A program made the translations under genes and the position numbers. DNA of 36,872 bases, taken from IMG/VR virus record IMGVR_UViG_3300025282_000108, positions 1 through 36,872 of that record. One strand, 5' to 3'. The notes beneath the pieces were generated by a model, which was not told the DNA's origin, made no database searches, and saw only the letters and a list, made by a program, of their open reading frames with translations. The DNA comes from a virus. Of the stretch, positions 3,001-22,996 are shown in pieces (the first letter of the stretch is position 1; every line of letters begins with the position of its first letter).

Positions 3001-4789
3001 GAGGAATGTTGCCTTGCAACGCATTATGCGTGATGCTGTCACCATTGGTTCGGCAACTCCCATAGACGCAAAAGACGCAAGAAAAGGTGCTCCAGATATA
3101 GTTTACTATCAGGAGAATGGTTATGGAACTGAGCGTTATTTTACAGTCCACGATCCTGCGCTTATAAAATCAATGGAGGCATTCGGTTCTTCTGGCTTGG
3201 GGAACATAACAAAAGTATTGTCAATGCCAGCAGGATGGTTGAGGGATTTGGTTACACGAAGCCCAGACTTTATTATTGCCAACCTATTGCGTGATACCTT
3301 GTCTGCCTACGTTACCAGTGGTGCAAACATGGTTCCTGTTGTTGATACCTTCAAAAACTTTGTTGGCTCAAGGGAAGACATGGACACGCTTGCTGATTTT
3401 GGTGTTGTGGGTGGGTACGATTTTTCCAACGATCCAGAAAATATAGCTCAGTACATATCAAAAATCCTGCAAAGAGAAGGACAATCTGTCCTTGGAGGAA
3501 TATCTGTCAAAGATGGTGTTAAGAAAGCGTGGGATTGGTTGGGAGATATTACCACCAAGTCTGATGCTTCTACCAGACTGGCGGCATACGATCAGGTTTT
3601 GAAGGAAACAGGCAACGAAGCTGAGGCTGCGTATCAGGGAATGGAAATTATTAACTTCTCAAGAAGGGGATCAAGCTCACTCTTTAGAATTTATGCATCG
3701 GCAGTACCATTCCTAAATGCAAGGATACAGGGCTTGGATGTGTTTTACAGAGCGTTGAAAGGAGAATATTCTGCTTACAGGGGAATAAATACACCGGGAG
3801 ACATAACCCAAAAAGCATTAATAAGAGGCGGTTATCTGTTTGGTATGACAGCCCTGTATTACGCAATGGTTAGCGACACCGATGAATACAAGAATGCGAG
3901 AAGGGAGGTCAGGGATGACAACTGGATAATTCCTTATGCTGATGGTATTCCAGCCCTGAAGATTCCTATTCCTTTTGAGGTTGGTGTTATCTTCAAGGTC
4001 TTTCCAGAAAGGCTTATGGATAATCTCTTTGGTGAAAGCACTATAGATGATGTTTATGAAAGCTATAAGAGACAACTGGCAACATCTTTGAACATTCCAA
4101 TTCTGGAACCATCGCTTGGCATACAAGCCCTTGCGCCATTGGTGGATGCGTACATTAACTTTGACAGCTATACCCGAACAGACATTGTTCCTTATTATAT
4201 GGAAGAAGGTCAGGAGGCAGGGTATCAATCCAGATATACCACCAATGAACTTACCAGAATTTTAGGTGAGGCGTTCAACATATCACCAATCAAGCTGGAA
4301 TATGTTCTCAGAGGCTATGGTGGCTCTCTCGGCTCTTATGCGTTAGCTGTTGTTGATGCAATGACAAGAGCGTTTTCAGACAGGGATTTGATCCCACAGA
4401 ACATAGATCGCTACCCTGTTATAAGGCGTTTTTCCCAAACCCCTCAGGGTGGTGGCTTGCAACAGCAATTCTACGAACTAAGAACAGAAGTTAACAAGTC
4501 AGTGCAGACATTGAACTCTCTCAAGAAAGAGAAGAGGATGGATGAATACAGAGCTTACAGAGAAACCCATGCTGATTTGCTTAGGTTGCGTACACCTATT
4601 TTAGCTATTGATCGTTACATGAAGAGCTGGAGAAAACGCAGAGACAACGTACAGAGATCAAAAACCATACCACCACAGAAGAAGAAAGAGTTGTTGTTGC
4701 AGATGGAGATAGAAAGAGACAGACGACTAGCTTCTGTTCCTGTCCTGAAGAAGAGGGCAGACATCCCATTCGCAGACTGGAATCTCTAA
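2..4789 (+). CDS. Giant polyvalent virion (likely ejected/internal) protein, 5'-truncated
   Basis: The reading frame is open from base 2 and reads convincingly (ETTYLADGIPEEI) before the first possible start (TTG at 41). The gene therefore begins left of the window and about 1595 C-terminal residues are visible. No classical enzyme motif was found by eye. The last third (from RSPDFIIANLLRD to the C terminus) resembles the LPD38-type region of large polyvalent phage proteins, which are virion-associated and probably enter the cell with the DNA. The segment near residues 45-140 resembles a DUF7178-like region. Both matches are recalled, not searched. The tail is strongly basic (KSWRKRRDNVQRSK), which fits DNA or membrane contact. 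It ends 128 bp before the end of the convergent methyltransferase gene and presumably belongs to the rightward late gene set of a circular map. Confidence 0.8.
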   Translation, partial: ETTYLADGIPEEILYSVYAENEKNPSGEQLKQGLINSLTTDAQKKKARNYSIPSFETLRRKLSSALREGADSNWYRNFGMGVATKVGFANMHEFSALFAATSPETNVTQNIQETLDVMRIAREIDPVEKSKQFSGEIGKVLAGRTIANKKKAILNFYKRGYYTTVRKGALKTPNYAETVLNMADNVFSPWAVMDSHMFNLLGMSKTPTEREYRYAQGMIQLLASDQAYNVYDAEGNFVRTRKLEPHEVQAALWAYQRNGLEEGGALPDESDFDLAMRKNAKKMEQLEAVINRDAPLKDYFIQAPRPHYIGGESNNPYSTYNLDKQIYLSRLAMAPKVIIETKVGRSRKYMPEGFELSMDEWIDYHSRVKESIVDRDGQITFLRELGIPHTFEMGLGTYENELSPNFVLKLPTLDYAEAQDVGAILADAFMQDSVATGYMQPNGANRTLLISKPDDAAFTQEELTEFNRRLEELRRATAWGEDVTVDYALMGSDQNMIIMGDPASWGVSSADYRSAKLGELAEMVLPIAETLGFNIKRSRLNTELINYEQEDTAGNPEYGYRSKVGQLRHRGSFPGTPNIQRAAIRDLYLPVWKTYQALLKEQGAESQDLIPPWEKAGNAVGSNLGVEIKIEEAVAEVENIVKSMARGTIPLWNTGASPLAIASAFNHVDAKLDQTIPEEWTAHDVIDNYELSPENSATFSRRVPDEIWDTEFSDLRTVIYGKPKEGKPIEVPDETPFQSMLKGVLNRDTFSERFESVRAKFVDNWASWERTSKEAQRVLGVTYLADLDAVAAIRFSDRARGIMARGLTRGVPAVIETEGGGSFVKVVPFVGTNGKEVGGLVQILAPLYKEQALNQKPMEKYFHAYAVVRRGTRLNKEGKATPVTEKMKAQAKELARKYPVIKEVYDNYQKWNNELLDFAEKTGILNQEERVLWQGYSDYYPFYRYFPSDEKYKYRGPKLGSALVGESPFKKELKGSFAPINEDMLTALTRNSLSIVTRGMRNVALQRIMRDAVTIGSATPIDAKDARKGAPDIVYYQENGYGTERYFTVHDPALIKSMEAFGSSGLGNITKVLSMPAGWLRDLVTRSPDFIIANLLRDTLSAYVTSGANMVPVVDTFKNFVGSREDMDTLADFGVVGGYDFSNDPENIAQYISKILQREGQSVLGGISVKDGVKKAWDWLGDITTKSDASTRLAAYDQVLKETGNEAEAAYQGMEIINFSRRGSSSLFRIYASAVPFLNARIQGLDVFYRALKGEYSAYRGINTPGDITQKALIRGGYLFGMTALYYAMVSDTDEYKNARREVRDDNWIIPYADGIPALKIPIPFEVGVIFKVFPERLMDNLFGESTIDDVYESYKRQLATSLNIPILEPSLGIQALAPLVDAYINFDSYTRTDIVPYYMEEGQEAGYQSRYTTNELTRILGEAFNISPIKLEYVLRGYGGSLGSYALAVVDAMTRAFSDRDLIPQNIDRYPVIRRFSQTPQGGGLQQQFYELRTEVNKSVQTLNSLKKEKRMDEYRAYRETHADLLRLRTPILAIDRYMKSWRKRRDNVQRSKTIPPQKKKELLLQMEIERDRRLASVPVLKKRADIPFADWNL

Positions 4790-5562: not shown

Positions 5563-6754
5563 TCTTTTTTTTATGCACCATCTGGATTCTAGTGCCCAAC
5601 CATTCCATGACATTGACTGCCATAGCCCGACCACAGGCTTCATACCTTTGTGATATGGGAGCCTGTTCTTTTGGCTTGCCTTTGTAGGGTATTTGGGTGT
5701 AGTTGTCTGGAAACCCCTGCAATCTCTCGCATTCAAGTGGAGTGAGTCTCCTGACAATCCCCTGTCTTTTTTCTGGCTGAACCATTACACATGGCTGTCT
5801 ATTGCCACCAGTCATGGCGTTGAGGGTGGGCGATATTTCTTCTTTTTGTATTCTTGGAGCGCCGCCGTCTTGAGATCGTCTTTCAAAACACATAACCGAA
5901 TGCCTGTCGGTAGCTGTTAAGGTGTACATGGAGCCATCCTCTTGTACTCCACTCCCATTTGAGTTGAAGTTTGCTGCCTGTACCGCAACAGGATTGTCGT
6001 AGGAAATGATGGTTCCTCTCTCGTAAGCGGAAAAGCGACCTCTCGCCATCAGGGTTCCAGATACTTCATCCTCAGCATATTCCCCTTGGAAGTTTAGCTT
6101 TCTCCAGATTTGTTCAGAAGAACCCTCCTCAGTCTCTCTGGAAGTTTCTTCCCTTTTTTTTCTGCTCGGTGGAGGATTCCCTGACAGTGCTTCTCTGTCA
6201 AATAATACTTCTGCGGGAGGTCTCCAGTCTCCAAGATGTCCGACAACGAAGACACGCCTTCGTCTTTGTGGGAGTGCTCTTGGAAATCGTTGTGTTCTCG
6301 TGTACTGAGCATCAAGAACCCTGTAGGCGAACCCATACCCGCATTCTGCCAGTGCTCCAAGGAAGTTTCCAAAATCCCTTCCTTTGTCCGAGGACAATAA
6401 GCCGGGGACATTTTCCCAGAGAATCCACGGAGTTTTAAGTCTATCAGCCAAGAGTATAAACTCCAAGGCGAGGTTCCCTCTATCGTCTTCAAGTCCTTTT
6501 CTAAGTCCAGAGATGCTGAACGAGGCGCATGGGGTTCCTCCCACAAGGATGTCTGGGTAGGTTTCTTTTTTGAGGTCATCTTTTTGTATTCCTGTAAAGT
6601 CTCCAAAGTTTTTAATCTCTGGATAGTGATAATTTAACACAGCAGAGCGAAAGGGGTGAATCTCAGAGAGACCGACACAGTTCCACCCTAATGGATGCCA
6701 TGCCACTGAGACAGAATCTATTCCGCTACAGACTGATAGATAATTGATTGTCAT
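5546..6754 (-). CDS. C5-cytosine DNA methyltransferase with motif X Asn-to-Arg change
   Basis: A 402-residue C5-MTase with all core motifs. They are motif I (SVCSGIDSVSVAW, residues 7-19), motif IV GGTPCASFS with catalytic Cys76, motif VI WENV (113-116), motif VIII QRRRRVF (163-169), a target-recognition region at about 180-330, motif IX (RRLTPLECERLQGFPD) and motif X (residues 370-382). Motif X normally reads RYxxxGNSxxVxV. Here it is QRYEACGRAMAVNV, so Arg376 replaces the near-invariant Asn (N304 of M.HhaI, N374 of M.MpeI). In M.MpeI the N374R/K change permits carboxy-SAM use. With the adjacent CmoA-like gene this suggests DNA carboxymethylation. Plain methylation, or loss of activity, are the alternatives. 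The ATG overlaps the upstream stop (ATGA), indicating translational coupling. Confidence 0.93.
   Translation of the reverse strand: MTINYLSVCSGIDSVSVAWHPLGWNCVGLSEIHPFRSAVLNYHYPEIKNFGDFTGIQKDDLKKETYPDILVGGTPCASFSISGLRKGLEDDRGNLALEFILLADRLKTPWILWENVPGLLSSDKGRDFGNFLGALAECGYGFAYRVLDAQYTRTQRFPRALPQRRRRVFVVGHLGDWRPPAEVLFDREALSGNPPPSRKKREETSRETEEGSSEQIWRKLNFQGEYAEDEVSGTLMARGRFSAYERGTIISYDNPVAVQAANFNSNGSGVQEDGSMYTLTATDRHSVMCFERRSQDGGAPRIQKEEISPTLNAMTGGNRQPCVMVQPEKRQGIVRRLTPLECERLQGFPDNYTQIPYKGKPKEQAPISQRYEACGRAMAVNVMEWLGTRIQMVHKKKNGKAV
6094..6606 (-). CDS. Out-of-frame ORF nested inside the cytosine methyltransferase gene
   Basis: This 170-residue frame lies wholly inside the methyltransferase gene, on the same strand and in another frame. 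Normally it would be dismissed as a shadow. Its sequence (WQNAGMGSPTGFLMLSTREH, SSLSDILETGDLPQKYYLTE, CQGILHRAEKKGKKLPERLR) matches a protein pattern I recall beside or overlapping cytosine methyltransferase genes in many phages (SLSDVLETGxVPxxYxLSxxAC.GILRRAExRGKxLP). It probably starts at the first or second Met (6606 or 6579). Function is unknown. The pattern may be conserved because of constraint on the overlapping frame, so expression is unproven. Confidence 0.45.
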   Translation of the reverse strand: METLQEYKKMTSKKKPTQTSLWEEPHAPRSASLDLEKDLKTIEGTSPWSLYSWLIDLKLRGFSGKMSPAYCPRTKEGILETSLEHWQNAGMGSPTGFLMLSTREHNDFQEHSHKDEGVSSLSDILETGDLPQKYYLTEKHCQGILHRAEKKGKKLPERLRRVLLNKSGES

Positions 6755-7062
6755 TCCATTTCCTTTTCTTCTTTCAGTTTCTTGGTTCTGAAGAACCCAT
6801 CGTACTCTGGATGTTTCACGTGGAACAATCTTGCATAGAAAGCAATGTAATCGTTTGAAATCTTGAAGTCAGAACCGCTTGTTTCTACTGTTGTGTGCCA
6901 ACGAATCCTTTGAATGACAGCCCATGCGCTGTAATGTTCTCTGCCACTTGATATTGCTTGGAGTGTAAACCTCTCAAACAACCGCCAAACATCAGGGTTT
7001 AGCTTGTGCCATGTCCACCACTCACTCTTTCGGTCATGGAGTTTTAGTTCTGGTATGGACAT
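6751..7062 (-). CDS. Conserved small phage protein of unknown function
   Basis: A 103-residue protein with NPDVWRLFERFTLQAISSG, HYSAWAVIQRIRWHTTVET and KISNDYIAFYARLFHVKHPE. This pattern recurs in small phage proteins near replication or methylase genes. It looks all-helical with many Trp residues and may be nucleic-acid binding, but no function is known to me. Its last four bases overlap the methyltransferase start (ATGA), so the two are likely co-translated. Confidence 0.8.
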   Translation of the reverse strand: MSIPELKLHDRKSEWWTWHKLNPDVWRLFERFTLQAISSGREHYSAWAVIQRIRWHTTVETSGSDFKISNDYIAFYARLFHVKHPEYDGFFRTKKLKEEKEME

Positions 7063-7083
7063 AATGCTGACCAGTCAATATTT
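7062..7083. promoter_or_regulatory. Operator palindrome copy 2
   Basis: TGACCAGTCAATATTT spans the region just upstream of the 103-residue gene start, between it and the end of the zinc-finger-like gene. The right arm is perfect and the left arm partial (AATGCTGAC). Confidence 0.6.
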
Positions 7084-7087
7084 GTTT

Positions 7088-7330
7088 TCATGATCCTGCA
7101 AGAATCCTGTTCATTAGTCCTCTTGTCATTCTAGTCCAGATTTCCTGATCACTAAAACTAGCACACCTGTAACACAATGACAACGTAACTGGGCTACCTG
7201 TGGCTCCTCTTACTAATTTAGTTCTTTCTGTTGGGTTTTCAGCACAACACTCACACTTTGGCGACTTGGTTTTTTTTGCACCACCGCCTCTTCTGTATTT
7301 TCTGGTGTAGTCTAGGAATATTTGTTTCAT
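7088..7330 (-). CDS. Small Cys-rich protein, possible zinc finger
   Basis: An 80-residue protein with a basic N terminus (YTRKYRRGGGAKKTK) and two Cys pairs (CECC and CYRC) about 23 residues apart, which could bind one zinc ion. I do not recognise the family. Its start overlaps the upstream stop by 4 bp (ATGA), placing it in the leftward operon. Confidence 0.7.
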   Translation of the reverse strand: MKQIFLDYTRKYRRGGGAKKTKSPKCECCAENPTERTKLVRGATGSPVTLSLCYRCASFSDQEIWTRMTRGLMNRILAGS

Positions 7331-9182: not shown

Positions 9183-10036
9183 GTTCCCAAGTATTGGTCA
9201 CAAAACTGTGCGGAGAGGCAATAGTTTTCACATTTGTTTGCTTTGCCCTCACGAAATTCTATGTAGTGTTCTGGTTTTGTCTGTGCATCGGTGGCTTTTT
9301 CCAAAGACGTATAGAGTTTGATTGCTCTCTTTTTGCCCTTAACCATCAGTGCGTGTTTGTCTGGCTGTTTCCATCGTTCCTCATCAGTGCAATTAGGAAG
9401 TGTGCCAAACATTTTGTATTGGTCTTCAGCCTCGCTGTGAATAGTTACCCTTTCCAGAATATAATCTTTCTGTTTTTGTTCAGTCCAGAGCGGAACATCC
9501 AGTTCCACGAATGGAGTCTTTGGATAGTTCCTGTCTCTGAGTAATCCTGACTGACTCCAATCCCTACAGATAGCAATAATCTTTATGCCTCGTACAGCTA
9601 CTCCATTGTCTCTCATTATTTCAACATTGATGTTGGTTTGTTTCTCCCAGTCAGGCTTTACCTCACCATTCTTTACTGCATATACAGAGGTTGTTTTGAT
9701 TTCAAGCAACATATTTCTTTTCACATCGTAAGCATCAATCTGACCAGATATAACCTTTCCTGCAACATCCATAAAATATCTTTTCTCAAAAATCAAATCC
9801 CAGTTGGTTTCGTTTGCTCTCTCTATTTGACTGTGTACTGCTGTGCCAAATACTGAGTAGAAGTTCTTGCTTGCATCCTGCACGATTGCGTTCTCGTTTT
9901 CTTTTTGCAGGATAACCTGTCTTGGTGATTTGAGCAGGGAGGTAGCAGAGTAGTCTGATCCCTTGTTGTCGTATTCGTCAAAGGTTAGTGCCCTGACAAT
10001 ACAATCATGTAGATTATGTACGTTGGTATATTTCAC
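9170..10036 (-). CDS. PD-(D/E)XK exonuclease (RecE/Cas4-like)
   Basis: About 288 residues from the GTG at 10036, which overlaps the upstream stop (GTGA) behind GGAGAG. An ATG at 10066 is the alternative. The nuclease core shows FGTAVHSQIE, then GQIDAYD (Asp) and LLEIKTTSVY (E-x-K), the classic catalytic set. The C terminus has a reduced Cys cluster (CENYCLSAQFC), reminiscent of the Fe-S-binding end of Cas4/AddB-type nucleases but missing the distal partner. It likely resects DNA ends for the downstream annealing protein. Confidence 0.85.
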   Translation of the reverse strand: MKYTNVHNLHDCIVRALTFDEYDNKGSDYSATSLLKSPRQVILQKENENAIVQDASKNFYSVFGTAVHSQIERANETNWDLIFEKRYFMDVAGKVISGQIDAYDVKRNMLLEIKTTSVYAVKNGEVKPDWEKQTNINVEIMRDNGVAVRGIKIIAICRDWSQSGLLRDRNYPKTPFVELDVPLWTEQKQKDYILERVTIHSEAEDQYKMFGTLPNCTDEERWKQPDKHALMVKGKKRAIKLYTSLEKATDAQTKPEHYIEFREGKANKCENYCLSAQFCDQYLGTNNT

Positions 10037-17311: not shown

Positions 17312-17344
17312 AATAATTCCTCCTATGAATAAAAGTTAATATTA

Positions 17345-17397
17345 CTGATTTCGTAAGGTTACTCATTCAGTCTAGGCTACCAATGCCTAGAGATCAG
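17345..17397 (-). ncRNA. Hammerhead ribozyme HH-F (type III), leader of the DUF6011-like gene
   Basis: Minus strand, 5' to 3': stem III strand CTGAT, C17, cleavage (17392/17391), stem I TCTAGGC/GCCTAGA with 7-nt loop, core CTGAATGA, stem II GTAA-CC-TTAC, GAA, stem III strand ATCAG. All helices pair without mismatch. The core carries one extra A (CUGA-A-UGA) relative to CUGANGA, as in copies A and E. The cleavage triplet AUC fits the NUH rule. Confidence 0.88.
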
Positions 17398-17793: not shown

Positions 17794-17853
17794 CAAACTG
17801 TTTCGACTCTTTTGAGTCATCATCAGCGAAAATACACATTTTCGGACAGTTTG
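17794..17853 (-). ncRNA. Hammerhead ribozyme HH-G (type III), upstream of the broken small gene
   Basis: Minus strand: stem III strand CAAACTGT, C17, cleavage (17845/17844), stem I CGAAAAT-GTGT-ATTTTCG, core CTGATGA, one extra U, stem II GACTC-AAAA-GAGTC, GAA, stem III strand ACAGTTTG. All three helices are perfect (8, 7 and 5 bp). The GUC cleavage triplet is optimal. No clear intact gene follows at once, only the broken frame at 17783. Confidence 0.9.
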
Positions 17854-17941: not shown

Positions 17942-19357
17942 CTAATCTTCCCTAAGACAATGTGGAGGGAGATTGATTACTTCACCAAAATGAGGCTCTA
18001 TATCGTGACACCAATTTGGGATTTCACCTGTACTCGCCCACAAGGTAGGAATACTCGGCTCTTTATCTTTAGCCACTGGATAAAATTCTCCATCGGTAAA
18101 GATAATTATGCCCTGTATGTCTGCAACATCATCTGTATAGTCATTGAGCAGATTGAAGATAGGTGTCAATTCTGTGCCACCACCACCCCTTGCTTTCAAA
18201 TCTAATTGTTCGCCTGAGGCAATGTCGAATTCATCCCACCATTCATCTTGCTCATTCTTATAAACATGCGTTGCACACCAACAGACTTTGACCTTTTCAA
18301 TATTGCATTGCTCGATCAATCCTTGAACCTGAGCACCAAATCCTTTCAGATATGCTCTCGTTGATTCCGAGACATCAATACCGATTGCCAAAGTACCGCC
18401 CATTGCTGATGGTTTCCTACTTGGCAGATAGTTTCCTGATCTGTAAGTAGTATCCCTCCATATATGGTTTCGGTGTGGTCTATTCCAAGTGGTTTCGTTG
18501 GGGAAAACACTCACCAACCAGTCTTGAATCTTTTCAAGATAGTTGGCTATTTCGACTTCAAGACCATCCAGTCTTCCACGAAATATATTTTCACCATCGC
18601 CTTTTCCACAAGCACGATCAACACTCTCTGAAACTCGAACTTTATTTTTCAATTCAGTTTGAGCATCAATGTTTTCACTCTTGGTCAAAGGTTTACCCTT
18701 GTCATTAACAGCATCCCATACACCACCTGCTGTATCAAAATCGGATGGTCTTCCTTGGTTTGAATTACCAAGGTCATCACCCTCTTTTTTGCCATTAGAT
18801 GAGTCATCTTGATCACCGTCCTGATCGCCACCTTGGTTTGCACCACCTTGGCTATCATCTTGATCACCATTCTGACTTGAACTGGAACTCCCACCATTTT
18901 GCTTTTCAGCTTTCTGTTCTTGTTCCAATTTGGCATAGATTTCGTCTGCTGTTTTACCGACATATTCGGTCTTATACAAAGCACCCTCAGGCATCTTCCA
19001 ATACGAGATTTCACCTGTCCTAGATAATTCGCCATTGATTGCGTAATCGCAAGCAACATTCCATAATTTAGGATCACGTTTTTCTCGCCTCAAATGGTGC
19101 GCCCAAGTACAGTGTAATGCCTCATGGATCAGGGTAAATTTTAACTCTGACTCATCGCATTTATTCACAAACTTGTCGCACCAAAAGATATGAGTGCCAT
19201 CAGTTGCCATCGTGTCACACACACTCTCAGATACTTCCTTGAGTATGAGTGGCACAATCATTGATGCAATCCCTAGCCTGCCCTCTTGGACAATGCTTGT
19301 TCTTGCCTTAATGATTTTATGTTCTGCCACTTTACTGGCAGTAGTTTGTTTATCCAT
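17942..19357 (-). CDS. DUF2201-type metallopeptidase-like/VWA protein
   Basis: 471 residues from ATG 19357 (MDKQTT, behind AGGAG). The ORF extends to 19381 but lacks an RBS there. Residues about 50-110 contain TLIHEALHCTWAHHLRRE (HExxH plus distal His), the zinc-peptidase-like N-terminal domain of DUF2201. Next comes a low-complexity Gly/Gln/Asp/Ser linker (about 150-210). The C-terminal VWA-like domain has GIDVSES (MIDAS DxSxS) and IIIFTDGEF. Such proteins act with MoxR AAA ATPases, which here is encoded three genes upstream in the same operon. Substrate unknown. Unlike its neighbours it has no recognisable hammerhead leader, only a hairpin and an operator. Confidence 0.85.
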   Translation of the reverse strand: MDKQTTASKVAEHKIIKARTSIVQEGRLGIASMIVPLILKEVSESVCDTMATDGTHIFWCDKFVNKCDESELKFTLIHEALHCTWAHHLRREKRDPKLWNVACDYAINGELSRTGEISYWKMPEGALYKTEYVGKTADEIYAKLEQEQKAEKQNGGSSSSSQNGDQDDSQGGANQGGDQDGDQDDSSNGKKEGDDLGNSNQGRPSDFDTAGGVWDAVNDKGKPLTKSENIDAQTELKNKVRVSESVDRACGKGDGENIFRGRLDGLEVEIANYLEKIQDWLVSVFPNETTWNRPHRNHIWRDTTYRSGNYLPSRKPSAMGGTLAIGIDVSESTRAYLKGFGAQVQGLIEQCNIEKVKVCWCATHVYKNEQDEWWDEFDIASGEQLDLKARGGGGTELTPIFNLLNDYTDDVADIQGIIIFTDGEFYPVAKDKEPSIPTLWASTGEIPNWCHDIEPHFGEVINLPPHCLRED

Positions 19358-19385
19358 AATTTTTCTCCTATTTATAAACAAATTT

Positions 19386-19488: not shown

Positions 19489-20469
19489 CTAGAACAATCC
19501 CTTTGCTGTGTCGGAAACTTTAATTTCCTTTTCAGCCTTACGCAGTTTTTTAACTGTGGCTTTTCTAGTTTTCCCATCTTTCTTGAGATTGCCCTGAGAT
19601 TTTGCTTTCACAATATCTTTTTGCAGAGTGGTAATTGTTTTCTTCAGATTGTCATCATCAGTCAACAAGTAGTCATCCACAACATCGAGCAAATCCCTCA
19701 AGCTATCAAAACTTGAATCCCTGAGAGGATTTTTAGATGGATTTTTTGGATCAAAGGCATCCAATCGGTCTGCCAAATTTTCAACCAAGCCAACCAATTT
19801 TTTCGCAGTATGCGAATCCGCATTCTGCTTGATTGATTTTTCCTTGGCTAATTCATTGGCAACGATGTTTGCACGAACATCCTCATCGATCTGAACTCGA
19901 ATATCGCCTGAGTTAAACTCATTGATAATTCCGATTTCATATTCAAAGATATATCGTGCTCTGAGATCATCAACACTTGGATAATCCAACCTATTAAATA
20001 AGTCACCTAATCCAGTGTGTTTCTGTTCTGCAACTTCGATTGCATCCTCATAACCATCGATGATTTCGTCAACCTCATCAAAGAATCTCTTTTGATATTC
20101 TTTGACTTGTTGTTCAAACCATTCAAGTTGGTCAGCAGGTAACAATCGCCATTCACCGCCTTTGACTCGCCTGTGGGTTCCTGCAACATAACTTGTGCCC
20201 TCACCCAAGACACGATCCTCAGCATCAATCCAAGGCAATGTTCTCTTGTAGATCACATTGTTTCGGAACTGCTTGCCGATTTTCGTTGGCTTTCGCAAAA
20301 AATCACGATCAAATAAATGCTTAGACACATTGACTAGAGTTTCATCGGCATTTTTATTATCTGCCAATTCTCTCTTTGCCTCTGTGTCAGCTTTTATGCC
20401 ACTGTAAGTTTTTATAGTGGCTTGTACTTTCACGCACTTTTCAGCGAGAGTGGTTTTCGTTTTACTCAT
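19489..20469 (-). CDS. MoxR/VWA-associated hypothetical protein (DUF3150-like)
   Basis: A 326-residue protein, helical and highly charged: HLFDRDFLRKPTKIGKQFRN, YKRTLPWIDAEDRVLGEG, QQVKEYQKRFFDEVDEI, and a Lys-rich C terminus. A protein of this type commonly sits between phage MoxR and VWA genes and recalls DUF3150, a match I cannot verify. It may act as adaptor or substrate of the MoxR complex. RBS AGGAG. Its mRNA would be released by the type I hammerhead at 20520-20576. Confidence 0.65.
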   Translation of the reverse strand: MSKTKTTLAEKCVKVQATIKTYSGIKADTEAKRELADNKNADETLVNVSKHLFDRDFLRKPTKIGKQFRNNVIYKRTLPWIDAEDRVLGEGTSYVAGTHRRVKGGEWRLLPADQLEWFEQQVKEYQKRFFDEVDEIIDGYEDAIEVAEQKHTGLGDLFNRLDYPSVDDLRARYIFEYEIGIINEFNSGDIRVQIDEDVRANIVANELAKEKSIKQNADSHTAKKLVGLVENLADRLDAFDPKNPSKNPLRDSSFDSLRDLLDVVDDYLLTDDDNLKKTITTLQKDIVKAKSQGNLKKDGKTRKATVKKLRKAEKEIKVSDTAKGLF

Positions 20470-20519
20470 GTTATTTCTCCTATAAGTAAAAGATTAATAT
20501 TAGTCAGCATTACGCTGAC

Positions 20520-20576
20520 ACCAATACCCAACCTTTCGATTGGGTTTCATAGCATCTCAGCTAATCTTCAGTTGGC
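20520..20576 (-). ncRNA. Hammerhead ribozyme HH-D (type I, circularly permuted), spans a stop codon
   Basis: Minus strand order: stem I strand GCCAA, core CTGAAGA, stem II TAGC-TGAGAT-GCTA (flanked by U-U), GAA, stem III ACCCAA with 8-nt loop TTGGGT, A17, cleavage (20525/20524), stem I strand TTGGT. Stem III is closed and stem I open, so this is a type I permutation, unlike the other six copies. The TGA of the core is the stop codon of the 61-residue gene. The cleavage triplet is GUA. Confidence 0.82.
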
Positions 20577-20753
20577 TTGTTCTTCTTCAGCAGAAATTGT
20601 TATTGAAGTATCTACTTCAGAATCAATATACGAATCTGGATTAGAAAGTAGCCACCCCTCTACAATGCTTTTAGCATCTTCTATTGAGTTGGCATTAACT
20701 TCTATTGAATATCCAGTTGAGACAACCGCAGTCACGCGATATTTTCCACTCAT
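20568..20753 (-). CDS. Small hypothetical protein between two ribozymes
   Basis: A 61-residue protein with MSGKYRVTAVVSTGYSIEVN, ANSIEDAKSIVEGWLL and an acidic tail (SAEEEQAN). The beta-beta-alpha pattern with an xxSxEDAxxxV motif resembles short DpnD/PcfM-like phage proteins. Function unknown. RBS AGGAG. Its last codons form stem I of ribozyme D and its leader is ribozyme E, so its transcript would be trimmed at both ends by ribozymes. Confidence 0.65.
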   Translation of the reverse strand: MSGKYRVTAVVSTGYSIEVNANSIEDAKSIVEGWLLSNPDSYIDSEVDTSITISAEEEQAN

Positions 20754-20795
20754 AATTGTTTCTCCTAATTATGAAAATTAATATTACTGATTTGT

Positions 20796-20848
20796 AATCG
20801 TTTCGTGGTTACTCATTCAGGCATGGCTACCAATGCCATACAACGATT
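20796..20848 (-). ncRNA. Hammerhead ribozyme HH-E (type III) with minimal stem II
   Basis: Minus strand: stem III strand AATCGT, U17, cleavage (20842/20841), stem I GTATGGC/GCCATGC with one G-U pair and loop ATTGGTA, core CTGAATGA (extra A), stem II GT-AACC-AC of only 2 bp, GAA, stem III strand ACGATT. Helices I and III are strong. The short helix II may slow cleavage. Loop I and the core match copy F although stem sequences differ. Confidence 0.8.
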
Positions 20849-20918
20849 GCTAGTGGCGCGATGGGATAGGAGAAATCAAAAAGACCATCGCCCTCTAAGG
20901 CGAGGTGATGCCACTAGC
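20849..20918 (-). terminator. Long inverted repeat with internal terminator-like hairpin after the MoxR gene
   Basis: GCTAGTGGC (20849-20857) and GCCACTAGC (20910-20918) pair perfectly, extendable with CGAT/ATCG. On the minus strand the enclosed segment holds CATC-CGCC/GGCGATG followed by GTCTTTTTGATTT, a plausible intrinsic terminator. The repeat abuts stem III of ribozyme E. Confidence 0.5.
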
Positions 20919-20941: not shown

Positions 20942-22036
20942 TTAAACCAAAATGTCTTGGTTCTTGATATGCCAATCAATGAAAACTTTCGTTTTCTTGA
21001 ATGATTTCTCTTTAGTCGTGAGTGCCTTTACAAACAACACTGCATATTCCTTGGCATCGAAACGATTGACATAGGTCAATGCGTTATCGAAATCAGAGGA
21101 ATTTTTTACAGCAGAAAGCAAGGATGCTACCGAGGCATACTGTAATTCAGTACGCTCAGGTAGTTTTGCTTTCTTTGGATCGCTCAGGATTTTCTTGGGA
21201 GACTCCAAATCGTTTTGGAATGCAACAAAGGTTAAATACTCTCTTGCACATACCTCACCAAGATAAGCCTCTAGCACTGGCTGTATTAGTGTTTGTCTTG
21301 GTTCACCGCTCAGGAACTCACTGCATTGATGCCAAGTACGAGGTGCAGGAAATCCGCCCTCTTGTTTTGGATCAAATTGATGCAAGAACTGAGGCTGAAA
21401 AGATATGAATGCAAGTATGTCTGCATGAATATCATTTTGGTAAGCCCAATTCAGCCACTCCTTAGGATCAGGAATTAATTCCAGTCTCAAACATGCTGAC
21501 TGAAAATGAGTCAACAGTCTGTTTGATCCTGCCCTGTCCGAGGAAAGGTTTCCTGCCATCAAAACTTTCCACCCTATCGGCAATTTATAATCAGTGCCTA
21601 TTCGACCCTCAAATATTAATTGCCTAAAGATGTTCTGCAATGCAGGGCTTGCTTGAGGAATCTCATCGCACAAAAGTATGCCCTTACTGTTTGGATCAGT
21701 AGGTAGATTATCGAGCAATGCTCTTTTTTGCAGGTATCGGTTATCCTTGGTTTTTTCAACTATGGGTACACCACCAAAATCGATGGTTTCATACAGACCT
21801 AATCTAAACCCACAATACCCCAATTCGTCTTTCTTTGGAGTTATGTTGTGCTCAGGAATGCCTCTAACACCTCTGATAACTTTTAGTTTTAGATAATCTG
21901 CATATAGTTGTAAAACAGAATAACTCAATGCTGTTTTTCCGATAGCAGGACTACCGATTATTAGCGGAGTGCTTTCCACACAATGTATAAGATTATGTAA
22001 GACAGCCTCGACTACTTCAGTTGCTTTTAATTTCAT
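20942..22036 (-). CDS. MoxR-family AAA+ ATPase
   Basis: 364 residues: Walker A IGSPAIGKTALS (about 27-38), Walker B GILLCDEIPQASPALQ (about 119-134), sensor-1-like KVLMAGNLSSDRAGSNR with the Arg-rich turn expected of MoxR, and ERTELQYASVASLL near the C terminus. MoxR ATPases remodel or load VWA partners. The DUF2201/VWA gene lies downstream in the same operon. RBS AGGAG, leader ribozyme C. Confidence 0.88.
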   Translation of the reverse strand: MKLKATEVVEAVLHNLIHCVESTPLIIGSPAIGKTALSYSVLQLYADYLKLKVIRGVRGIPEHNITPKKDELGYCGFRLGLYETIDFGGVPIVEKTKDNRYLQKRALLDNLPTDPNSKGILLCDEIPQASPALQNIFRQLIFEGRIGTDYKLPIGWKVLMAGNLSSDRAGSNRLLTHFQSACLRLELIPDPKEWLNWAYQNDIHADILAFISFQPQFLHQFDPKQEGGFPAPRTWHQCSEFLSGEPRQTLIQPVLEAYLGEVCAREYLTFVAFQNDLESPKKILSDPKKAKLPERTELQYASVASLLSAVKNSSDFDNALTYVNRFDAKEYAVLFVKALTTKEKSFKKTKVFIDWHIKNQDILV

Positions 22037-22070: not shown

Positions 22071-22120
22071 GCTGTTTCATACTTTCGTAATCATCAGTCA
22101 GAGTTACACTCTGATACAGC
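22071..22120 (-). ncRNA. Hammerhead ribozyme HH-C (type III), leader of the MoxR gene
   Basis: Minus strand: stem III strand GCTGT, A17, cleavage (22115/22114), stem I TCAGAG-TGTAA-CTCTGA, canonical core CTGATGA, stem II TAC-GAAA-GTA flanked by a U-U mismatch, GAA, stem III strand ACAGC. Cleavage triplet GUA. Helices I and III are perfect (6 and 5 bp). Confidence 0.88.
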
Positions 22121-22405: not shown

Positions 22406-22467
22406 AATCTGTTTCGCATATCCCATTACAGGATGCTCATCAGTCTGGTTAATTCCAGATACAGATT
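22406..22467 (-). ncRNA. Hammerhead ribozyme HH-B (type III), canonical core
   Basis: Minus strand: stem III strand AATCTGT, A17, cleavage (22460/22459), stem I TCTGG-AATTAA-CCAGA, core CTGATGA, stem II GCAT/ATGC with inner CC/GG, GAA, stem III strand ACAGATT. All conserved core bases are present, stem III is 7 bp and perfect, and the triplet is GUA. This copy most closely fits the textbook consensus. Confidence 0.93.
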
Positions 22468-22476
22468 GAAAGAATT

Positions 22477-22497
22477 GGGGAGTCATTACGACTCCCC
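22477..22497 (-). terminator. GGGGAGTC hairpin downstream of the 116-residue gene
   Basis: GGGGAGTC and GACTCCCC form an 8-bp perfect stem with a 5-nt loop, about 65 nt after the stop codon and just before ribozyme B. Same stem sequence as the hairpins at 17895 and 19458. On the plus strand it is followed by TTTATT, so plus-strand termination is also possible. Confidence 0.6.
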
Positions 22498-22942: not shown

Positions 22943-22996
22943 TACTGTTTCGTTCTTTTGAACTCGTTCAGGCTAGACACACATCTAGCGACAGTA
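22943..22996 (-). ncRNA. Hammerhead ribozyme HH-A (type III), leader of the first operon gene
   Basis: Minus strand: stem III strand TACTGT, C17, cleavage (22990/22989), stem I GCTAGA-TGTGTG-TCTAGC, core CTGAACGA (extra A, N7 = C), stem II GTTC-AAAA-GAAC, GAA, stem III strand ACAGTA. All helices are perfect. The triplet is GUC, the most common natural cleavage site. Confidence 0.9.

Follow-up and report, generated by a model that had tools for sequence, protein, structure and literature searches.

A type I hammerhead ribozyme fused to a stop codon in a phage operon, with a candidate role in forming mRNA 3' ends

A hammerhead motif on the minus strand at 20520..20576 (copy D) of the window (the whole virus record of 36,872 bases, which encodes a phage primase/helicase and terminase large subunit) is best explained as a stop-fused type I hammerhead that forms mRNA 3' ends, a reading to which we assign a probability of about 0.74. 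Copy D would cut a polycistronic phage mRNA at 20525/20524, between a 61-residue gene and the downstream 326-residue gene g326, and the upstream message would keep the ribozyme body (stems II and III) as a structure at its 3' terminus. On the other side of the cut, the message would start with UUGGU, followed by a covarying leader hairpin. Hammerheads open at stem III (open-III) would do the mirror job, their body being kept by the downstream message as a 5' structure, and at their junctions the 3' end of the upstream message would be supplied by another hairpin, located after the stop codon and ahead of the ribozyme. The stop codon would be a UAA before stem I, the UGA of the core or a UAG in stem II, as set by the reading frame of the gene. 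Ribozyme identity, covariation, stop fusion and hairpin distribution are established at the level of sequence; that the RNA is cleaved in the cell, that its ends are protected and that the ribosome affects its folding, we infer. Three observations count against this explanation: the U10.1-U11.1 mismatch by the core, a leader hairpin that is not general and a stop fusion that is not universal.

Phage hammerheads have been known since 2011, with no clear role. The proposed division of labor supplies a testable rule, in which topology predicts both the message that retains the ribozyme body and the closeness of ribozyme and ribosome.

Copy D and its operon

Seven hammerhead-like motifs were found on the minus strand from about 22,990 to about 17,370, around a conserved operon. 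The operon genes, all on the minus strand, encode a MoxR-like ATPase (phrog_1297; 20942..22036), the 61-residue protein (20568..20753, with an ATG preceded by a Shine-Dalgarno sequence), g326 (19489..20469, conserved between the ATPase and VWA genes) and a VWA/metallopeptidase-type protein (17942-19381). Peptide patterns detected no relatives of the 61-residue or the 326-residue protein in IMG/VR, and blastn with the region or with copy D alone against 50,697 phage records gave no match.

Six of the seven motifs are open at stem III, and their extents are approximate except for the second: 22945..22996 (core CTGAACGA at 22971), 22406..22467 (core 22443; 37.7 bits with Rfam Hammerhead_3, below the gathering score), 22075..22120 upstream of the ATPase gene (core 22097), 20793..20851 upstream of the 61-residue gene (core CTGAATGA at 20820), 17797..17853 (core 17826) and 17344..17397 (core CTGAATGA at 17370). 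Five of the six pass the open-III descriptor; the copy at 17826 was read by eye. The first-pass annotation had set copy D, as the one motif open at stem I and closed at stem III, apart from the other six. Its topology is indeed unique in the window, with the added detail that three of the six (22971, 20820 and 17370) have a core one nucleotide longer, with an extra base at N7, and that the copy at 17826 has an extra U before stem II. Longer-core open-III hammerheads (CTGAATGA or CTGAACGA), in which stems I and III are long, are common among these phages, including L001 at 452, L029 at 1808, L037, L054, L113 and L144; they would fail a strict core consensus.

Stem I of copy D consists of five pairs (GCCAA at 20576-20572 with UUGGU at 20524-20520), and its 5' strand is formed by the last codons of the 61-residue gene (GCC AAC). 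The core CUGAAGA (20571-20565) follows, and its U4, G5 and A6 (20570-20568) are the UGA stop codon of that gene. Stem II (20549..20564) has the arms UAGC/GCUA (20563-20560 with 20553-20550) and the loop UGAGAU; the pair that adjoins the core, at 20564/20549, is a U10.1-U11.1 mismatch instead of a standard pair, which leaves four standard pairs. GAA (20548-20546) is followed by an 8-bp stem III (20545-20538 with 20533-20526) closed by a GAAA loop. Position H17 is A at 20525, which places the predicted cut at 20525/20524. CUGAAGA, GAA, A15.1-U16.1 and A17 are correctly placed for the hammerhead core consensus, stems II and III are loop-closed with stem I left open toward the transcript, and the three helices round the core (5, 4 and 8 pairs) all covary in relatives. 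The coordinates, the cut site, the topology, the start of stem I within the gene and the identity of core UGA and stop codon had all been proposed in the first-pass annotation, and direct reading bears them out.

The minimum free energy (MFE) fold of copy D is the type I structure (z of -3.4, and -3.9 with flanks). Covariance model R1 was built from 26 type I copies from other phages (alignment A2, 26 of the 50 listed copies), all with G-C at 10.1-11.1; the window, copy D and the whole subtype with U-U at this position were excluded from its training. In a search of the window R1 found copy D with 36.1 bits (E of 7.7e-8), and the sole other match had 13.6 bits (E of 0.17). By sequence, copy D is a complete type I hammerhead, with direct reading, R1 and the MFE fold confirming the structure. 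It shares core and helices with Rfam Hammerhead_1 (which we take to be RF00163) and Hammerhead_3 (RF00008). Unlike members of the Rfam hammerhead families, it lies below every gathering threshold, with no match to the hammerhead families of Rfam 15 even at E up to 10; nor did the type I copies of L001, L003, L005, L037 and L103 match an Rfam hammerhead at E up to 0.01.

The U-U mismatch by the core and the lack of an Rfam match could suggest an inactive relic or a chance match. We consider this very improbable: a chance or false hammerhead is ruled out by the R1 E-value and by the independent helix test described below, the U-U subtype recurs in 64 stretches in IMG/VR, and its stems I and III are complete in 40 of 43 loci. 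The mismatch may lower activity; decay is made less likely by the constant pairing of U-U with A17 and by the many phages that have kept it. That copy D would cleave is suggested by this conservation together with the published activity of clustered phage hammerheads, for which cutting was shown both in vitro and inside E. coli cells (Perreault et al., 2011; PMC3088659, in the parts considered here). The same parts describe hammerheads of different topology (types I, II and III) clustered in prophages and propose that long phage transcripts are cut into gene-length mRNAs, some of the hammerheads being active. The present operons resemble those clusters in that single genes or short runs of genes are flanked by several hammerheads of mixed topology. 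In the examined parts of that study, stop-codon fusion and a 5'/3' division of labor are absent. A mispair at 10.1-11.1, which is outside the core consensus itself, led to rejection there unless activity had been measured, so that this filter would exclude the U-U subtype (PMC3088659).

Helices and subtypes in related phages

The pattern scan of IMG/VR fixed only the core, the loop II sequence UGARAY and GAAA, and its figures refer to the matches listed. It gave at least 108 non-redundant matches, and stem II was paired (4/5 or better) in 77 of those listed. Complete stems I and III with a UH were present in 69 of these 77 and in 1 of the 31 lacking stem II among the matches listed, and a control with scrambled stem I strands gave a mean of 4.4/77 in the same set. 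Selection was on core and loop II only, and the test of the helices is independent of any choice of pairing and free of circularity. Counts of covariation gave 67 double-changed cells vs. 14.1 in shuffles, with 99.7% of cells paired, in rows that were preselected by a descriptor demanding pairing. The MAFFT alignment A1 was left out of these counts as it misaligns stem II between two subtypes. The first-pass annotation had named missing covariation in related phages as evidence that would speak against the helices; the comparison found covariation to be present. Natural hammerheads have a tertiary contact between loop II and stem I made by conserved nucleotides; in the alignment almost every row reads UGARAY in loop II, UGARAY itself being part of the search pattern.

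Descriptor searches yielded at least 172 matches, 142 of those listed being left after removal of identical or truncated contexts, and clustering of the listed matches gave 69 type I and 40 open-III representatives. Among these 69 type I representatives, 45 have G-C at 10.1-11.1 with C17, 7 have G-C with A17 and 17 have U-U with A17; that is, A17 accompanies U-U in 17/17, C17 accompanies G-C in 45/52, and no U-U copy with C17 was detected. The 64 IMG/VR stretches match the U-U pattern exactly over 27 bases and comprise 43 loci when clustered on their flanks. An exact search of 84,980 bacterial and archaeal genomes gave 0 matches and no host, so the phages with this subtype look free rather than prophages.

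The open-III descriptor misses some copies, namely one in L001 near 3706 and those before the ATPase gene in L004, L005 and L007. The latter three (about 6390-6500, 7020-7130 and 9880-9985, respectively) carry an insert of about 28 nt that forms two extra hairpins between CTGATGA and stem II. Their stem II is compensatory by eye between L004 (GATTC/GAATC) and L007 (GACTC/GAGTC).

Another phage group has a distinct type I hammerhead that is short and varies very little (TGTCA-CTGATGA ... TGACA); an ORF of about 88 residues follows it at a distance of about 84 nt (L038, L050, L053, L055, L057, L060, L071, L075, L085, L088, L089, L104, L105, L138 and others). One copy searched by blastn against phage records gave no match.

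Stop codons and ribozyme topology

In these uncultured phages, type I hammerheads are placed right at the end of a gene or within that end, so that the active center can double as the stop signal, and open-III hammerheads are kept well away from the preceding gene. Genes were defined as the longest ORF, not by a gene finder, with one rule for both topologies, and 4 type I and 7 open-III representatives without an upstream ORF of 40 residues were omitted. Among the clustered matches listed, 54/65 type I vs. 0/33 open-III representatives had the upstream stop between -12 and +8 relative to the core, and the ribozyme lay within 10 nt of the stop or overlapped it in 57/65 vs. 1/33. Open-III copies were at least 18 nt away from the stop in 32/33, with the stop at -40 or further in 32/33 (matches listed). 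The first base of the stop in the 65 listed type I representatives was at -8 (25), -7 (10), +1 (8), +8 (4) or elsewhere, where +1 is the core UGA (the window copy included) and +8 is a UAG in stem II; 11 of the 65 had the stop outside -12 to +8, in addition to the 4 without an upstream ORF. In the 43 U-U loci the stop was at -8 (17), +1 (6), +8 (11) or other positions (7), and two loci had no ORF. Stop fusion is not universal, since in two isolated phages, JeffCo and Alexa, the unannotated type I copy stands off about 47 and 150 nt, respectively, from the preceding annotated gene.

Positions -8 and +1 share one reading frame, which places the core UGA in frame behind the usual UAA. Because it is in frame with this commonest stop, the core UGA need not be specially designed. 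The -8 codons of the eight core-UGA cases (CAA, GAA, AAA, CAA, TTA, AAA, AAA and AAA) are all one substitution from UAA, the codon of the 61-residue gene being CAA. A device unique to this phage was rejected, the core UGA being the stop in 8/65 of the listed type I representatives and in 6/43 U-U loci; from the sequences it mostly looks like an in-frame fallback. A purely structural need for the UAA at -8 was likewise rejected, as genes in another frame have their stop at -7, with a T there.

These codons also bear on a plain compaction of the operon, to which we give slightly less than even odds. In such a case the type I body is itself the 3' structure and needs no spacer, genes and ribozymes have closed up with no regulation, and the core UGA is a backup stop used once the UAA at -8 was lost. 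The shared frame of -8 and +1 and the single substitution separating every -8 codon from UAA support it, as does the space in open-III junctions, which is filled by a hairpin. Compaction leaves unexplained why all three frames are closed within the first 24 nt or so in 16/17 U-U vs. 4/52 G-C representatives (matches listed). In copy D the first 15 bases, CUGAAGAUUAGCUGA, close all three frames.

When the stop is at +8, translation runs through the entire core and gives proteins with a C-terminal PTDD. The 11 U-U genes of this kind and the gene at L001 7039 all start with an ATG preceded by a Shine-Dalgarno sequence. Of the twelve +8 proteins compared, the L001 7039 protein included, four are mutually related (L001, L031, L154 and L171), and the remaining eight showed no similarity to one another. 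The starts and the homology among the four led us to reject the view that these genes are spurious long frames. It is unusual for an RNA structure to set how proteins end, as it does with this tail common to proteins that are otherwise unrelated.

A further reading, which we regard as unlikely, treats the U-U type I hammerhead as a combined module for stopping translation and cutting RNA. Its 5' half, CUGANGAUUAGCUGA, closes the three frames, and a gene in any frame would end inside the ribozyme, one frame appending PTDD to mostly unrelated proteins and another stopping at the core UGA. Finishing ribosomes would hold the ribozyme open and thereby gate cleavage by translation, and selection for an in-frame UAG in stem II would have fixed the U-U mismatch.

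The first-pass annotation had argued that a ribosome at the stop would cover the core and block folding. The geometry is sound and general, as given by the 57/65 and 1/33 counts above. In its extended form, elongating and terminating ribosomes would hold stem I and the core of stop-sited type I copies open; cleavage would await a gap in translation, which would tie the separation of the downstream gene to upstream ribosome traffic, with open-III copies out of reach. We find such gating rather doubtful. It fits the placement of the two topologies, and a ribosome is reported to protect about 10 nt beyond the A site; a terminator hairpin 5 bp from the stop has an efficiency below 10% vs. about 90% at 28 bp (PMC4824070, in the portions considered here). 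As in those ribosome-repressed terminators, an RNA structure lies a few bases past the stop, where a terminating ribosome keeps it unfolded; in contrast to copy D, that system is a terminator and not a ribozyme, and the likeness is one of principle only (PMC4824070). The same placement follows from compact packing or from a role at 3' ends, and the register is not conserved exactly, with three different stop positions in equal use. Ribosome gating is consistent with the geometry, and regulation of cleavage by the ribosome would be a further step. The first-pass interpretation as a whole was upheld for structure, topology and stop overlap, with ribosome-regulated cleavage staying at the level of a proposal. 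If gating is true, copy D would be a natural ribozyme controlled by translation.

Message ends and relatives of the operon

Formation of 3' ends by copy D is consistent with where hairpins are located. The count covered those of the matches listed that were long enough and contained a stop or start, namely 31 open-III and 49 type I regions. A hairpin lay between the upstream stop and the ribozyme in 30/31 open-III junctions (median z of -4.6, matches listed), as in the window at 22477..22497 on the minus strand (GGGGAGUC-GUAAU-GACUCCCC). Type I copies mostly leave no space for such a hairpin; their body can sit directly on the stop codon because, in the preferred reading, it would itself serve as the 3' end. 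The leader hairpin of copy D (GUCAGC-GUAAU-GCUGAC, 20503..20519, minus strand) adjoins the 3' strand of stem I. Leader hairpins were present in 32/40 U-U loci (shuffle mean of 4.3) with 20 different arm pairs. A 5' leader hairpin is not general, since over both subtypes only 24/49 leaders after the type I cut had a z below -1.5 (matches listed). The layout suggests that every message released by the cuts would end in a 3' structure, which for type I would be the ribozyme body and for open III an independent hairpin, and that 5' structure would be provided by the ribozyme body (open III) or by an optional leader hairpin (type I).

In L001 at about 4105-4120 the stem I 3' strand UUGGU is complementary to an ACCAA close by and, once cut, can pair with it, a pairing that could keep the cleavage products apart and that was seen also after L031 5339. 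Pairing between loop II and the loop of the leader hairpin was considered and dropped, as no consistent complementarity was visible by eye.

In T7-like phages, RNase III sites lie between genes, and the intercistronic cuts leave 3' hairpins on the messages. The present arrangement is similar in that an intercistronic cut would leave a 3' structure on a phage message; it differs in that the RNA itself is the predicted cutter and the stop codon is inside it.

A hammerhead with a stop codon in its core was not described in the open-licence literature searched, subscription papers being outside its scope. Nor were the stop-fusion rule, translated cores with a shared tail, the U-U/A17 subtype or the rule for end structures met in that literature, as far as the portions considered extend. 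Mixed clusters of phage hammerheads were already known in 2011; what looks new is the fusion to stop codons and the U-U subtype.

Although the ribozyme pattern scan is blind to proteins, many loci among its listed matches carry this same ATPase-g326-VWA operon, with protein identities as low as about 30%. Operons of this kind normally combine both topologies. The junction before the ATPase gene has an open-III hammerhead in the clade of the window and a type I hammerhead in remote phages, and the junction before g326 is open-III in most loci. The first-pass annotation had taken the mixture to mean that ribozymes arose or were replaced more than once. Replacement is supported, because one orthologous junction is open-III in one clade and type I in another, while separate origin goes beyond what this junction indicates. 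No hammerhead was detected by the descriptor, and no type I match by R1, in the distant ATPase-VWA loci L008-L026, and Vibrio phage PJN101 gave no hammerhead match.

The junction before g326 raises the possibility, which we hold tentatively and think somewhat improbable, that a small gene and its type I hammerhead form a unit insertable into the operon, since the hammerhead would close translation and separate the new message from its neighbor. In L002-L006 the ATPase gene is followed by an open-III hammerhead and then directly by g326, and both the window and L001 have between ATPase and g326 an extra small ORF with a type I copy, the two ORFs being mutually unrelated. Furthermore, the closest modules to copy D, leader hairpin included, precede a different gene in L005 and L006. 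Set against this, only two loci have the extra unit at the ATPase-g326 junction, and the direction of change may be either insertion or loss.

Ribozyme-sized queries against phages gave few matches. The L087 query matched Aeromonas phages, L087 being a pattern match unconfirmed as a hammerhead. Another query matched two Acinetobacter phages, JeffCo (L196), with its type I hammerhead at 20002-20051 after a helicase gene and before a tRNA-Arg, and Alexa (L197), with its copy at 20001-20050 after an integrase gene; the other queries of this size gave no match. The JeffCo and Alexa copies have the same loop family as the type I loci.
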